DNA from: a virus | Strand: one strand, 5' to 3' | IMG/VR virus record: IMGVR_UViG_3300034105_003889 | Span: 1-20,697 of that record | Length of the DNA stretch: 20,697 bases | Shown: piece by piece, positions 5,503 through 15,816 of the stretch | Layout: each line of letters begins with the position of its first letter | Numbering within the stretch: the stretch's first letter is position 1 | Translations under genes and position numbers: made by a program | The notes under the pieces: generated by a model | Databases searched by the model: none | What the model was told of the DNA's origin: nothing | What the model saw: only the letters and a program-made list of their open reading frames with translations

Positions 5503-6129
5503 TTAATATCCCTTTTCTTGGTTACTTAGCTGAACTTCTATTGAATCTCTTGCATCTCTAATGTGGCATGATGCCATTTGTTTATTTACAGCATCAAGTT
5601 CTTTTTCATCGCACCACTGAATGAGCAAGAAGGCAGTAATAACACCTTTTACTTTTATTGGTAGGATCGACAATCCTTGAACATTATTTTCTTCTAGGAA
5701 TTGTTTTGAGTATGAATGTATTAGATCATCTATATGAAAAGGAGTTCCATCTGTTTTTAACATAATAGACAACAAAGGAACGAACATAGAACACAATAAC
5801 CCTGTCATTCTTCTTGAGTCTGCTGAGACTCCTTTCACAAGAGACTCATGAGTTAATGTAAATTTACGCATGGATACCCCATCCATGAAATACTCTCCAT
5901 TATGAAATTGTAATACTTGAGTTCTATCAGAGTTAGTTTGGATTCTCAACTCAGTCAAAGTTTCATGTATTCCGGTATGAACACGAATAAATCCAATATG
6001 TTCTTTTTCATTGTCTGGTTTTTTCACAAACATCTTTATAGATGCTGCAATGACTCCAACAATTACTCCGGAAATTATTGTAATAGTTTCAAACCACGAT
6101 ACATTACTTGCGCTTGACATATTTAACAT
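5503..6129 (-). CDS. Membrane-anchored GAF-like domain protein
   Basis: A 208-residue protein with one N-terminal membrane segment (about residues 13-33, FETITIISGVIVGVIAASIK) and a soluble domain from about 50. The domain pattern (helix, then SDRTQVLQFHNGEYFMDG, LTHESLVKGVS, and ILPIKVKGVITAFLLIQW) resembles GAF-type sensor domains; the R-x-x-v-x-q-F-H-N-G motif recurs in phage and Bacteroidetes proteins I remember. GAF domains bind small ligands such as cyclic nucleotides, but no ligand can be named. The N-terminus overlaps the end of the 1097-residue gene by 26 bases; Met4 (6120) is an equally good start and shortens the overlap. Neither start has a clear ribosome binding site. Confidence 0.7.
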   Translation of the reverse strand: MLNMSSASNVSWFETITIISGVIVGVIAASIKMFVKKPDNEKEHIGFIRVHTGIHETLTELRIQTNSDRTQVLQFHNGEYFMDGVSMRKFTLTHESLVKGVSADSRRMTGLLCSMFVPLLSIMLKTDGTPFHIDDLIHSYSKQFLEENNVQGLSILPIKVKGVITAFLLIQWCDEKELDAVNKQMASCHIRDARDSIEVQLSNQEKGY

Positions 6130-9100
6130 CTTTTGTTGGATTTACTGCGAATGGGGTATCTTTTATGTATTTTAGTAATAAAGCTTTAGTTCCTACTTCT
6201 CCAGCACCGTGTTCTTCATGCATAGCACGGTTTTTACTTTTAGACAACACTCTTAAATTGCCATTGGAATTGTTTTGTGGATTTCCATCTTTATGATCTA
6301 CATCTTTTCCATCACCTTTTTTAACCCGACCAGTTTTCATCAACTTGCGTCTAGCTAAAACTCTTTTACTTCGGTTTGCTCTTTGCTCCGCAGTACCATG
6401 ATACTCTTTATATTCTTTTTTATAGTTACGAGCTTCTTCTATGAAGCTCTCAAACAGCTCTGGTCTAATCACGCTGTTTTCCCACATCTCATGAAGCAGA
6501 TCTATTGCATTAACTTCTTCAACATTTTTTGTAATTGTTTCTGGTGAAACTAAGCCAGATGAAAGAATAAAATCAACTGCGTCTTGATCGTTCATGTTCT
6601 CGACTAAGAAATCATTTATAAAGTCATATGCCTCTGACATTTCCTGAGAACCAGAAGTATCGAATTGAGAGTAGTCTACAACAGGTATTGCAACTTCCGT
6701 TTCACCATCTATCGTGATGATGTTGTAGTCTCTTGCAGAACTGTCAATATAGTCAGACATATCAAGTGCATTTGATGTTATGAATTCAGGTTCAATACCA
6801 ACATAATTCATTAAACCAATAACATCATCTCCAATGTCTCGTAAATCTTGATCAACTTGTGATGATGAACCGGGATTAATTATTGGTACATTTAATTGTT
6901 GTTGTTGCTGTTGAGTTTCAGTTTCAAACTCTTCCTTCAAATCAATATTCAATACGGTTGATAATCCTCTGATTTTATTTGCACCTGTGCCTTTAGATCT
7001 TCCTTTAAATCCACCTCTGAATCGAAGATCCTTCATTAGTTTTTTGATCAAAGATTCTGATATCTGTTCCATCTTCACATCCGTGCCATCTTTGCTCAAC
7101 GCTAAAACATGACTGGCAGTTTGTGGTGCTTTCTCACCAAACTTCATACTACCACTCATACTCTCAAGACAGAATCCCATTTTGAATTCATCACTTGAGT
7201 CAAATATTTCTATTAGCTTAGCTCCTGCTTTTTTATGTAATTTCTCTTGTTCTTCAATAAGAACCTTTGATGCTTGAAACTGTTTATCTCTTGGCTCTTG
7301 ACCATCAGCAACCATTTTCTTTATTGCTGTTGCATCCCATTGACCAAGTTCGGCGGATTTAACAAACCCACTAATCATTTTCTTCAGCTCAGTCACCAGC
7401 TTAGAAACTTTTGGATTTTTAGAAGCAATGTTTCCTGCATATTCCATTGCTGCTTCAATTGTGGCAGTTGCTTCGCCAGATTCTGCGTTTAGAATTCTAG
7501 CTGATCCGCATTTGACGCTAGCTCTAATGCACTTATTCATATCAATCTTTGAGATATCTCCTTTAGACTTCTCCCAAAGATCTTTTGGTATGAATATTAC
7601 ATCAGTCTTTGATGTTCCATTTGTAGCTCCAGCTTTCTTCCACAACTCAGAAACTCTTCCTTTGTTCTTTCCCATATGAAAAGAAACGGATTCTCCGATT
7701 TGATTGAATATCAAATTTGCTGCTCGCTCAGCTGAAGCATATAAAGTCTGGCTATTCTGTATTTTTGCAATAGTGCTTTCGTTCTCTGTTCCAGTCTTAA
7801 CCCCCAACATCTGATTCATGACAATAGGAATCGCTTCCTCAAGGTCAGTTGCTTTATGATCCCAATCTGGGAATTGCGATCTACTACTAGTAGTTTTCCC
7901 GTGTGGTGGAGTTTTAGGAAGTTGTGGAAGAAGCGTTCTTGGATCTTGCTGAGTTACAGTTGGAGCAGGAGCTTCTTCTGCTTTCTTCTTTTTCTTCTTC
8001 TTCGGTTCTTCTTTTTTGTTTCCCTTTTTCTTACCTTCTTGTTTTCTTGCCCACTCAGGAAATAGTTTCTTAGATGATGGAGTTATAGCAAAGCTGGAAT
8101 CGTCAAGATATTTTGCAGCTTTGCCTCTGTCAAAATGTTGGGGATCAACAAGAACCTGAGAACTGCCAATATCAGCTTTGTCTACAATTTTGGTTTTACC
8201 ACCCTTTGTAGCCACAACAGCAAATTGAGCTTTTTTCCCCTTGCGCTCTTCTTGCTTTCGGATTGTATCTTTCTTCTTTGGATTTCCTGCGCTGCGAACT
8301 TCTGTTCTAACATTTGCTCTCACCTTAGAAGGAGATGCTACTGATTTCTTTTTCATCTTGGTAGCTTCAGTCAATGATTCTTCATTAATTTCTTGCGACA
8401 CTTCTTGCGACATAGTGTCGCGAGCAATTTTACGATTAGCCAATTCATTCAATATAGCATTAGCACTTTGTGCGCCCATGCCCACTCTTATAGCTTCTTT
8501 TCTTCCTAGCATAATAGAAGAACCTATAGCTTTGCTTTCTTCCAACATATTCACAAATGATTCTATGGATTCGGGTGAGAAATATTCAGTTATATTTTTC
8601 TTCTTTGCTGCATTTCTGGTTCTAGCCATAGCATTTCTTTCTACTCTTCTTTTTTCTTCTGCTCCGGGAACGACATCAGTAAACTGCTTACGAAGCATGG
8701 TTGCATATTGTTTTGTACCTTTAGCTTTGTGTATGGATTCTGGCATAAACGCACTAGCCAATTCATCATCTCCTGCTAGAATTGCTTTTCTCATTCTACC
8801 AGCTTTTGCATGTTCTACTGGAATTCTGCCATTCACAACTAGCTTCTTAAGTTGATCTCCAGTCAGATCTTCTTCGTTTCTTTTTGATGCTAACGGATGA
8901 AAGTCAATCTTAACTTTATGAACAGTCTTACCATCGGATCCTATCACTCCACCATACTTTTTGACATGAGCTTCTACCTGAGTTTTTAGTGTTGGTTTAC
9001 CAGTGCTAGTACCAAATTGATCTGGACCAACAGCTACAGTTATATGCTTATGTCCTCCTTTTTCAATCAGATGTACAATGTGATGAAATGGAGTGACTGA

Positions 9101-9397
9101 TGATTTTTGGGGTACTACTCCGAATTTTAATTTAGTACCAGGCATGCTATCTTTAATATACGCATGTGATCCCTGTATCAACTTTTCTTTTTGCTTGAAT
9201 GCTAGTGGTGCATCTGGAGCATTCTCAGAAGCACCAAGTCCATGATAGAAGTGACTGTACCCGGTAGAAGCAGCATGAGCAGCTGCAGCTTGAGCAATTT
9301 CCTCATGTCCCCGTGTGTATGGGTTAAATGCGCCAGTTACTAGGAAGGCAGATCCAACCGATTTTGCTTCTGTCATTAAGTTGAGTAGTTTGTTCAT
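6104..9397 (-). CDS. Giant multidomain protein: cytidylyltransferase-like N-terminus, nuclease-like middle, HNH C-terminus
   Basis: A 1097-residue protein. Residues 17-135 look like a nucleotidyltransferase (HIGH superfamily): VTGAFNPYTRGHEEI carries the G-x-F-x-P-x-x-x-G-H signature with Thr28 in place of the first His. Residues about 330-475 are Lys-rich low complexity, then a linker with PQLPKTPP. Residues about 520-830 form a conserved phage domain with GTSKTDVIFIPK and IRASVKCGSARILNAESGEA; the D...x-x-K spacing recalls PD-(D/E)XK nucleases, which is inference. A poly-Gln run lies near 830. The C-terminus (about 1000-1070) is an HNH-type nuclease motif: VDHKDGNPQNN (D1034-H1035), NLRVLSKSKN (N1047, N1056). 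The leader MNKLLNLMTEA fits head targeting. It follows a terminator, has no clear ribosome binding site, and heads the leftward cluster. Confidence 0.8.
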   Translation of the reverse strand: MNKLLNLMTEAKSVGSAFLVTGAFNPYTRGHEEIAQAAAAHAASTGYSHFYHGLGASENAPDAPLAFKQKEKLIQGSHAYIKDSMPGTKLKFGVVPQKSSVTPFHHIVHLIEKGGHKHITVAVGPDQFGTSTGKPTLKTQVEAHVKKYGGVIGSDGKTVHKVKIDFHPLASKRNEEDLTGDQLKKLVVNGRIPVEHAKAGRMRKAILAGDDELASAFMPESIHKAKGTKQYATMLRKQFTDVVPGAEEKRRVERNAMARTRNAAKKKNITEYFSPESIESFVNMLEESKAIGSSIMLGRKEAIRVGMGAQSANAILNELANRKIARDTMSQEVSQEINEESLTEATKMKKKSVASPSKVRANVRTEVRSAGNPKKKDTIRKQEERKGKKAQFAVVATKGGKTKIVDKADIGSSQVLVDPQHFDRGKAAKYLDDSSFAITPSSKKLFPEWARKQEGKKKGNKKEEPKKKKKKKAEEAPAPTVTQQDPRTLLPQLPKTPPHGKTTSSRSQFPDWDHKATDLEEAIPIVMNQMLGVKTGTENESTIAKIQNSQTLYASAERAANLIFNQIGESVSFHMGKNKGRVSELWKKAGATNGTSKTDVIFIPKDLWEKSKGDISKIDMNKCIRASVKCGSARILNAESGEATATIEAAMEYAGNIASKNPKVSKLVTELKKMISGFVKSAELGQWDATAIKKMVADGQEPRDKQFQASKVLIEEQEKLHKKAGAKLIEIFDSSDEFKMGFCLESMSGSMKFGEKAPQTASHVLALSKDGTDVKMEQISESLIKKLMKDLRFRGGFKGRSKGTGANKIRGLSTVLNIDLKEEFETETQQQQQQLNVPIINPGSSSQVDQDLRDIGDDVIGLMNYVGIEPEFITSNALDMSDYIDSSARDYNIITIDGETEVAIPVVDYSQFDTSGSQEMSEAYDFINDFLVENMNDQDAVDFILSSGLVSPETITKNVEEVNAIDLLHEMWENSVIRPELFESFIEEARNYKKEYKEYHGTAEQRANRSKRVLARRKLMKTGRVKKGDGKDVDHKDGNPQNNSNGNLRVLSKSKNRAMHEEHGAGEVGTKALLLKYIKDTPFAVNPTKDVKYVKRK

Positions 9398-13265: not shown

Positions 13266-14003
13266 ATGAAGACAGTATATTCAGTTATGACTGCATTAGC
13301 AGTATCAGGAACCGCAGTTGCACAAGAAGTCGCACCTGCTCCTGCGTCCACTCAGATCGTAGATGCTTTGTCTCTTACACAGACAGTCGGCATCTATGCT
13401 AAGAATGGTTCTGCTAGTTCAGTAGCAGCATTAGATTCTACTATTGCTGCAAAGGCATTTGGATTAGATTGGCACTTCAATGTTCCAGTTTATATTTCGG
13501 ATGCTAGTGGTTACGGTTCGTTGGAACTTGGCGTTTCTTGGGATTTTCTCAAGAGTGCAGAGTTCTTGTCATCCAAGACAACTCTCAATGTTGAGGGCGG
13601 TTTGTGGATGCCAACAGGTTCAGCAGGTTATGAAACCACAGATCTCAATCCACACATCGGTTTCGGTGTGAATATGGATTGGACTAATTGGAATTTTAAT
13701 CAAACTGCTGATTACCGTTTCGTTCCCGGTAGTATGTACGATCCACTTCTTGATCGCGTTGATCAAGATGTTGTTTCTCTTGTCAGTGATATTGACTACA
13801 AGTGGAGTAAGGAACTCACTGTTGGTGTAAATATTACTCAAGAGTATTTTGATGGCGGTGGCGTTGCGCTGCTCGGTCCATCGATGAGTTGGAAGCCAGC
13901 AACTTCTGTTGATGTATCAGCAGGAATTGGTTTCCCTGTTTGGCAAGAACTCTCTGTTGAGAATTCTTGCGTTGTAAATGCTGGTGTTAGTTTTAAATTC
14001 TAA
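13266..14003 (+). CDS. Phage-encoded outer-membrane beta-barrel protein (porin-like)
   Basis: A 245-residue exported protein. Residues 1-19 are a standard signal peptide (MKTVYSVMTALAVSGTAVAQ, cleavage after AVA). The mature part is a series of amphipathic strands rich in aromatic girdle residues and Asp/Asn turns (LELGVSWDF, LNPHIGFGVNMDWTNWNF, DIDYKWSKELTVGVNIT) and ends in F-K-F, the C-terminal Phe that directs insertion by the BAM machinery. The size suggests about 10-12 strands. The specific family is not recognised. The start is fixed by AAAGGAG 7 bases upstream; the ATG at 13262 is out of frame. A perfect late promoter drives it. Possible roles are altering the infected cell surface, superinfection exclusion or a permeability change, all inferred. 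Confidence 0.8.
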   Translation: MKTVYSVMTALAVSGTAVAQEVAPAPASTQIVDALSLTQTVGIYAKNGSASSVAALDSTIAAKAFGLDWHFNVPVYISDASGYGSLELGVSWDFLKSAEFLSSKTTLNVEGGLWMPTGSAGYETTDLNPHIGFGVNMDWTNWNFNQTADYRFVPGSMYDPLLDRVDQDVVSLVSDIDYKWSKELTVGVNITQEYFDGGGVALLGPSMSWKPATSVDVSAGIGFPVWQELSVENSCVVNAGVSFKF

Positions 14004-14553: not shown

Positions 14554-14731
14554 TGCCCTTACCCCATCCTGTTCCATGTTTGTAATGATTAATAATGTCT
14601 TCTGTATATTTACCTGATGCTTTGAGTACTCTAATTTCTTCAGCAGCATCGCGACAAATATCATAAACTTCTTGGTTTACTGTACGCCATTTATCAGCCA
14701 TATTTCGTAATCTTGTTTCTACGTCTATCAT
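14543..14731 (-). CDS. Small helical hypothetical protein
   Basis: A 62-residue protein with the pattern RLRNMADKWRTVNQEVYDIC followed by RDAAEEIRVLKASG, typical of short helical phage proteins of the type that pair a damage- or growth-related early role with no known fold. The function is unknown. It overlaps the protease stop by ATGA, so translation is probably coupled, and it overlaps the coiled-coil gene start. Confidence 0.65.
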   Translation of the reverse strand: MIDVETRLRNMADKWRTVNQEVYDICRDAAEEIRVLKASGKYTEDIINHYKHGTGWGKGNDE

Positions 14732-15801
14732 AGTCTTTTATTTTGTGTCCTTCCACTTTTATTTGTGGATATTGTGGCTGGTGGTGCAACAGGTACTGGA
14801 ACATTTCGAGCCATTGTGTATGCTCCCCATGCCGCTTGTAGTTGAGCAACATCTGCTCCATCTATTTTGCCGTCTCCGTTGATATCCATGAAGATATTGT
14901 TGTTTCCCCATGCGCCGAGAAGCATTGCCAAATCTGCACCATCGACTTTACCGTCATCGTTCAAGTCTTCGATCTTAGATGACAGCATAACATGAGTTAC
15001 GGAGTAGCCGTGCGTCTTGAGTTGAGCATTGATTGCAATAATCTCAGGAGCATTCACCTGCATACCACCGTTCATCAATCCAACGAATATAGTATGTCCA
15101 CCACCATCAATGACGAATGCAGGACTGCCGGAATCGCCACCCCAAATGACTGGCCATCCGCCAGCTTGTGCGCCTTCATTGACACCATCTTTGATTGGCA
15201 TAACACCAAAGCCGCTGCACACATCAGCACTACTTACGAAAGACTTATCCATCTCCATCTTATAAGCCTTACCTTCACACTCAAAAACCCATACAGGGTG
15301 TTTAAGTGGAATATATCGCGCATCAGCGATATGATCATACACACAGACATCATCAGCAGGGAATGCTGATTCAAATTCTAATAGAGTGTGATCAGGACCA
15401 ATTGAAAAGGTTACCTTTACGACTTTGCGAGTATGTCGAGTGCCAGACTTACCTAAGAATGTGTAGGCTTCATATTCACCGACAGGGCGACCTGGTCCTC
15501 TGTAATGCTCACAAATGAGAGCATGTTTGGGTGATATGAGAACAGCAGCAGGATTGGTTGTGTTCCAGAAATTAATACTCTCCGCAATATACGGAGTGGT
15601 GAGATTGCCTCTTAGTAATTTAGAGTACTCTCGTGCAAATGCGCGGGGGCGTAAACTTACACCCGACCAATCAACTGCTGCTCCTTGACAAGCAGCATTG
15701 AATCCCTTCTGCTCACCACCAACAAGTGGTACGAGTGTTGCGGGGGCGTGGTAGGTATGAATGTCATGAAGGACGGGGTTGTAATTTTTGAGTATTGCCA
15801 T
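14728..15801 (-). CDS. Trypsin-like serine protease with two dockerin-type calcium-binding repeats
   Basis: A 357-residue protein. Residues about 40-265 look like a chymotrypsin-fold protease: H99 in ALICEHYRG (after LISPKH), a candidate D137 in GPDHTLLEFE, and the nucleophile S224 in WGGDSGSPAF. Residues 279-299 and 306-326 are near-identical dockerin/EF-hand units: DLNDDGKVDGADLAMLLGAW and DINGDGKIDGADVAQLQAAW, each with D-x-N-x-D-G-x-x-D calcium ligands. A Pro-rich tail follows. There is no signal peptide, so export by the Sec route is unlikely; virion surface or cytoplasm fits better. CATAAATA lies 7 bases before the ATG and no ribosome binding site is evident. It sits among small early-type genes. 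Dockerins bind cohesins in cellulosomes, but no cohesin is visible here. Confidence 0.82.
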   Translation of the reverse strand: MAILKNYNPVLHDIHTYHAPATLVPLVGGEQKGFNAACQGAAVDWSGVSLRPRAFAREYSKLLRGNLTTPYIAESINFWNTTNPAAVLISPKHALICEHYRGPGRPVGEYEAYTFLGKSGTRHTRKVVKVTFSIGPDHTLLEFESAFPADDVCVYDHIADARYIPLKHPVWVFECEGKAYKMEMDKSFVSSADVCSGFGVMPIKDGVNEGAQAGGWPVIWGGDSGSPAFVIDGGGHTIFVGLMNGGMQVNAPEIIAINAQLKTHGYSVTHVMLSSKIEDLNDDGKVDGADLAMLLGAWGNNNIFMDINGDGKIDGADVAQLQAAWGAYTMARNVPVPVAPPATISTNKSGRTQNKRL

Positions 15802-15808
15802 AGTCCCG

Positions 15809-15816
15809 TATTTATG
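15809..15816 (-). promoter_or_regulatory. T4-late-type promoter element (CATAAATA) before the protease gene
   Basis: Minus-strand CATAAATAC ends 7 bases before the ATG of the protease gene, in the 22-base gap after the 79-residue gene. A start site 5-6 bases downstream would give a leaderless message. It would let a virion-type gene be expressed late from within an early operon. Confidence 0.5.

Follow-up and report, generated by a model that had tools for sequence, protein, structure and literature searches.

A phage-encoded chymotrypsin-fold protease with a type I dockerin in viruses that probably infect freshwater Planctomycetes

Introduction

Dockerins are the assembly modules of cellulosomes. 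A gene on a 20,697-nucleotide stretch of viral DNA (IMG/VR record IMGVR_UViG_3300034105_003889, positions 1 to 20,697; here called the window) joins such a module to a predicted serine protease, and the question is what a phage would use this combination for. The first-pass annotation of this DNA had called a fusion of this kind unexpected in a T4-like phage, and the analysis supports that surprise. A literature search of partial coverage found no paper on phage dockerins. Here we describe the domains of the protein, its relatives and their gene neighbourhoods, and weigh the functions that it may have.

Results

A chymotrypsin-type domain with an invariant catalytic triad

The 357-aa reading frame (Table 1) is a real, conserved protein and not a chance product, because its family is conserved, with purifying selection, over about 20 contigs. 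We based an AlphaFold2 model on 16 relatives (pLDDT 77.5, pTM 0.78). It is poor for the 9 N-terminal and the 20 C-terminal residues and has the double beta-barrel of the chymotrypsin fold. In the VIA fold comparison it matched plasmin (Z 13.9 over 174 aligned residues at 3.0 Å) and also the V8-like protease Esp (Z 13.8). With these S1/PA-clan enzymes (PDB 8f7v, 6q12) the phage protein shares the fold and the order of the triad, but it is only 12–13% identical to them and has no match to Pfam Trypsin (PF00089) at E up to 1. No Pfam domain was found in the N-terminal part, a PHROGs search gave no significant match, and Foldseek against viral models returned general S1-fold proteins only.

H99, D137 and S224 together with the GDSGSP motif are invariant in 16/16 aligned sequences, the most distant of which have about 36% identity. 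In the model H99 follows a strand, D137 lies just before one and S224 sits in the loop preceding strand 226–231, a placement that agrees with the expectation for a chymotrypsin fold. Both the complete His-Asp-Ser set and the trypsin-like nature of the domain, as proposed in the first-pass annotation, were thus confirmed by alignment and structure prediction. In contrast to trypsin, the place of Asp189 (six residues before the catalytic Ser) reads as Val. Sequence and model together predict that the domain is proteolytically active.

Table 1 Features of the protease-dockerin gene and its upstream motif in the window
Feature	Position	Strand	Description and basis
Whole ORF	14728..15801	(-)	357 aa, ATG start; S1-like protease, type I dockerin and Pro-rich tail
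Chymotrypsin-fold serine protease domain	14989..15771	(-)	Residues ~11-271; AlphaFold2, VIA-align, alignment
Catalytic His99 codon	15505..15507	(-)	Invariant across relatives (alignment)
Catalytic Asp137 codon	15391..15393	(-)	Invariant across relatives (alignment)
Catalytic Ser224 codon, in GDSGSP	15130..15132	(-)	Invariant across relatives (alignment)
Type I dockerin, one domain with two EF-hand repeats	14836..14970	(-)	Residues 278-322; Pfam PF00404 above cut-off, alignment
Calcium loop 1, DLNDDGKVDGAD	14932..14967	(-)	Residues 279-290; dockerin alignment
Calcium loop 2, DINGDGKIDGAD	14851..14886	(-)	Residues 306-317; dockerin alignment
Variable Pro-rich C-terminal tail	14731..14811	(-)	Residues 331-357; low pLDDT from residue 338, dN/dS 0.3-0.87
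Late-promoter-like CATAAATA	15809..15816	(-)	7 bases before ATG; window and three closest relatives only

One dockerin behind the protease

Behind the protease domain, Pfam Dockerin_1 (PF00404) gave a single match (residues 278–322, E 7.6e-7, 29.7 bits against a cut-off of 22.9). While this profile search established the dockerin identity, the two tandem dockerin units of the earlier reading had to be given up, since Pfam gives one stretch and the repeats are the two EF-hands of one type I dockerin. That these repeats are calcium loops was borne out by Asp at positions 1, 5, 9 and 12 of both loops in 7/7 aligned dockerins. The dockerin helices 288–296 and 315–323 are well modelled. With its two-repeat calcium loops and its PF00404 score above the cut-off, the phage domain is like cellulosomal dockerins (PF00404; PDB 6kg9, 1daq). 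It differs from them by a shorter inter-repeat linker and by its partner, which is a protease and not a glycoside hydrolase; no scaffoldin or cohesin was found in the window or in its relative G005 (113 kb), both incomplete records.

The sequence is also like the dockerins of Planctomycetota secreted proteins, with up to 63% identity, although the corresponding NCBIfam model for GC-type dockerin-anchored proteins (NF041540) gave the phage protein 21 bits, below its cut-off of 29. Planctomycetota dockerins are mostly C-terminal and stop right after the match, whereas in the phage protein the dockerin is followed by a 27-aa tail without Cys, and a signal peptide is missing. The absence of a signal peptide, already noted in the first reading, was judged by inspection, as the N-terminus is not hydrophobic. 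The Pro-rich tail stood up as well; it is disordered in the model (pLDDT 31–38) and weakly constrained. Judged by its sequence, the dockerin may provide calcium-dependent docking on a cohesin-like partner.

Relatives and selection

Tblastn against 50,697 deposited phage genomes found no relative of the window protein, and the deposited phages also held no relative of the L017 or L049 protein described below and none of the dockerin. No relative of the whole protein was found in genome contigs. In viral contigs, 17 loci were recovered by tblastn with the window protein and two further groups (L031/L032/L035 and L049) by profile searches. The total of about 20 IMG/VR contigs comprises T4-like and other phage types, with identities to the window protein from 96% down to about 36% and the triad always present. 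The dockerin is kept in three diverged groups, namely the main group (L002–L014), L035 on a 174-kb contig, and L049. Four relatives (L015, L016, L017 and L018) have none, which indicates that docking is not required for the core function. In L015, which is 78% identical, precisely the dockerin is missing, so that ...MSS is directly followed by RNVPVPV...

Protease and dockerin are both under purifying selection, with dN/dS values of 0.06–0.11 for the protease and 0.01–0.10 for the dockerin where computable (one pair gave no value); the 0.3–0.87 of the tail indicates weak constraint. The protease-domain tree had long branches and was mostly unresolved, and was left out of the counting of gains and losses. 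In L010–L014 a protein about 83% identical is encoded in another genome, where a Terminase_6N gene lies close to it, L015 has another terminase, and G002 and G005 carry the T4-type major capsid protein gp23. The deposited phages that match G005 in its capsid region are mostly cyanophages. The occurrence of nearly the same gene in at least three phage backgrounds points to its exchange among phages sharing hosts.

Gene neighbourhoods

In the T4-like group the protease gene lies in a non-structural region beside a phosphoesterase gene and small unknown genes; in L003, L005 and G005 the phosphoesterase, a 119-aa and a 79-aa gene precede it. A role as capsid maturation protease was dropped, because the gene is outside the head gene block in these relatives. 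In L010–L014 it and the neighbouring terminase genes lie on opposite strands. In L015 it closes a block of tail-fibre-like, terminase and tail protein genes. The protease module of L017 and L018 forms the N-terminus of a 1030-aa protein, whose gene is flanked by a baseplate wedge gene (phrog_438, E 6e-43) and the gene of a 2923-aa tail-spike-like protein (weak tail-spike matches) that contains beta-helix and RCC1 repeats. A second baseplate-like gene lies upstream. A glycan enzyme was considered for the 579-aa gene beside L016 and for the C-terminus of the L017 protein and found no PDB or Pfam support.

In planctomycete genomes the full-length profile was swamped by dockerins (about 30–110 matches in each genome; those listed fall almost entirely within the dockerin), and therefore the protease domain was searched alone. 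Its sole match in 198 genomes (L121, E 5.3e-6) is a GDSGSP protease with an Ig-like match, which follows portal, capsid, cement protein and Mtd_N-type fibre genes in one operon. The contig is binned in a planctomycete MAG of the class of G020 (Phycisphaerae). The deposited genome MW202510 (Podoviridae sp. ct3Et533; L122) encodes, in this gene order, an internal virion protein, a structural protein, a lyase, an S1-like and an fn3 protein. Its S1-like hypothetical protein is likewise a GDSGSP protease within a structural gene block, but it is reached only via L121 (26%), has an Ig-like N-terminus by eye and no dockerin. The evidence for kinship of L121 and L122 to the window protein is one profile match (E 5e-6) together with operon likeness. 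The protease is thus encoded in the structural block in L015, L017, L018 and the distant L121 and L122 and outside it in the T4-like group, for which a location in the virion is putative.

Two other genes of the window may be mentioned. A 245-aa protein (13266–14003, plus strand) with a signal-peptide-like start and a C-terminal Phe reads as an outer-membrane beta-barrel; it also occurs in L002 and G005, has a weak relative in a Phycisphaerae MAG (29%, E 3e-9) and may be a superinfection-exclusion protein. In a 1097-aa protein (6104–9397, minus strand) the N-terminus looks by eye like a nucleotidyltransferase, and an HNH_3 domain (Pfam E 1.6e-8) lies at the C-terminus.

A late-type motif before the start codon

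In the window, L002 and L003 the motif CATAAATA is found seven bases upstream of the ATG; L004 has TATAAATA at this position, with a different sequence further upstream. A putative late-type promoter, as proposed earlier, is present in these four phages; in the other relatives (L005–L018) the motif is missing. By inspection, 4/7 of the NATAAATA sites in the window precede a correctly oriented start by no more than about 30 bases. A transcript from the CATAAATA site would be nearly leaderless.

Probable hosts and their cohesins

When only the dockerin was used to scan genome contigs, mostly Planctomycetota were found, with the best match in a Phycisphaerae MAG (63%). On such sequence likeness, the hosts are probably freshwater Planctomycetes. 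The abundance of dockerins in this phylum, stated in the first-pass annotation, was evident from the match numbers given above. The search for cohesins in likely host genomes gave a divided result: 8/19 planctomycete genomes had 1–3 matches each and 11/19 had none.

Further dockerin and cohesin-like proteins of related phages

The L003 contig, which encodes gp23 and a gp19-like T4-type tail tube protein, carries a second, unrelated dockerin protease. This subtilase (L003:18410–19837, minus strand; Peptidase_S8, E 6e-42) has an N-terminal hydrophobic segment and, by sequence, a C-terminal planctomycete-type dockerin. It was found in 20 further contig records, 21 in all (L129–L149), and among those listed every complete copy has the dockerin. 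In a search of planctomycetes only, the best match of the phage protein was an S8 protein (G139), 48% identical over residues 48–474, dockerin included.

Contigs that also hold the S8-dockerin gene encode further proteins of this kind. One is a 1083-aa tail-fibre-like protein, collagen-like and of Lcl_C type, which has a complete dockerin in its interior (L151:4033–7284; PF00404 above cut-off), the other a 264-aa secreted cohesin-like protein with its own C-terminal dockerin (L152:2801–3595). The latter gene adjoins that of a PEP-CTERM-like secreted protein (L152:1804–2478; Pfam match below cut-off). In G005 a tail-fibre-like protein (L054:1822–2679) has half a dockerin, that is one EF-hand repeat, below the Pfam cut-off. 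A second secreted cohesin-like protein is encoded two genes behind the protease-dockerin gene in L035 (L035:9427–10677).

The cohesin-like domains of L152 and L035 are homologous (E 3e-18). Their joint profile matched a planctomycete cohesin profile (hhalign E 1.5e-5, probability 80%), which itself clearly matches solved cohesins; against the PDB the joint profile found no cohesin. In phage contigs, Pfam Cohesin (PF00963) gave only a sub-threshold match, in L035-type phages, and the cohesin-like family was present in 2/30 phage contigs searched. A single-sequence AlphaFold2 model of the L035 protein was useless (pLDDT 33), and its assignment is therefore based on sequence profiles. We consider both proteins to be probable cohesins.

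Discussion

We hold with about even confidence that the window gene encodes a phage protease of the late phase, which docks on the Planctomycetota envelope by means of a host-type dockerin and cuts a surface protein there. The protease would be expressed late and would act outside the cytoplasm on the host envelope. Its protease module would belong to a group of S1-like proteases associated with adsorption or tail modules of phages, and in this branch it carries a host-type dockerin. Besides fold, triad, the selected dockerin, the late-type motif of the closest phages and the tail or late contexts of relatives, this reading draws on the dockerins in tail-fibre-like proteins of related phages (complete in L151, half a domain in G005); a planctomycete host is suggested by the closest dockerins and by the S8 match. 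Carried on the virion or released together with it, the protein would fold its dockerin in calcium-containing water and bind a cohesin-like receptor on the Planctomycetota cell surface. Docking would hold the protease against surface proteins. By cutting these it would give access to the receptor during entry, or remove receptor and debris during release. We infer the catalytic activity, the virion or extracellular location, the docking partner, the substrate and the host.

The earlier reading offered two alternatives, a protease on the virion surface or an intracellular one directed against the host. The latter would stay in the cytoplasm and cleave host proteins during takeover, as the missing signal peptide and the small early-type and phosphoesterase neighbours in the T4-like group would allow. 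Nevertheless, the cytoplasm is low in calcium, and a strongly selected calcium-loop dockerin makes little sense there. Several relatives without a dockerin are encoded in operons for baseplate, tail or packaging functions. An adsorption or late function fits this better than an intracellular one, and the late-type motif of the closest phages argues in the same direction. We therefore regard an intracellular function as unlikely; of the earlier alternatives, the adsorption or late role is favoured by the contexts of L015, L017/L018, L121 and L122, but not by the non-structural location in T4-like phages. Also against it count the strand of the gene in L010–L014, the missing motif in L005–L018, the four relatives without a dockerin and the negative cohesin search in the window and G005. 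A late role could also be that of a lysis or release enzyme outside the virion, freed via the holin lesion or at lysis, which would digest envelope protein or debris while its dockerin holds it to cell-wall remnants. Besides the late-type motif, a lysozyme gene about 1.6 kb downstream in the window and in L002 is consistent with this, as is the gene next to the protease-dockerin gene in L035, which encodes a 65-aa membrane protein and precedes that of the secreted cohesin-like protein. The small L035 protein has no Pfam holin match, however, and the module stands in baseplate or structural operons of L017/L018, L121 and L122, so that a release enzyme appears to us the less probable though still a sizeable possibility.

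The dockerin might instead fasten the protease to a phage-encoded cohesin-like protein and so serve assembly within the phage system. The cohesin-like gene two genes downstream in L035-type phages would suit this, as would the homology of its domain to the cohesin-like protein with its own dockerin in another phage and their joint match to planctomycete cohesins. The family is nevertheless confined to two of the 30 phage contigs searched, its Pfam Cohesin match is below cut-off, and its members have signal peptides whereas the protease has none; we consider docking within the phage quite improbable. Least credible is a purely adhesive S1 fold. Inactive chymotrypsin folds do exist in binding proteins, for instance in HGF, which was among the fold matches, but the invariance of triad and GDSGSP in all relatives makes such a non-catalytic role highly improbable for the phage protein.

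The docking protease that we prefer may be part of a wider pattern, which we put forward tentatively and with some doubt: Planctomycetota phages may have taken over the dockerin-cohesin surface display of their hosts, tagging S1 and S8 proteases and a tail fibre with dockerins and encoding cohesin-like proteins themselves. Host docking sites would then serve attachment or be blocked, and the gene described here would provide the virion-side protease.

As far as the collections searched show, the combination of a protease with a host-type docking module is a new phage enzyme design. The planctomycete genomes examined have about 30–110 dockerin matches but few or no cohesins. A phage dockerin under strong selection on a protease is a handle for finding its binding partner on the cell, and the protease-dockerin gene is a pointer to T4-like phages of Planctomycetota.
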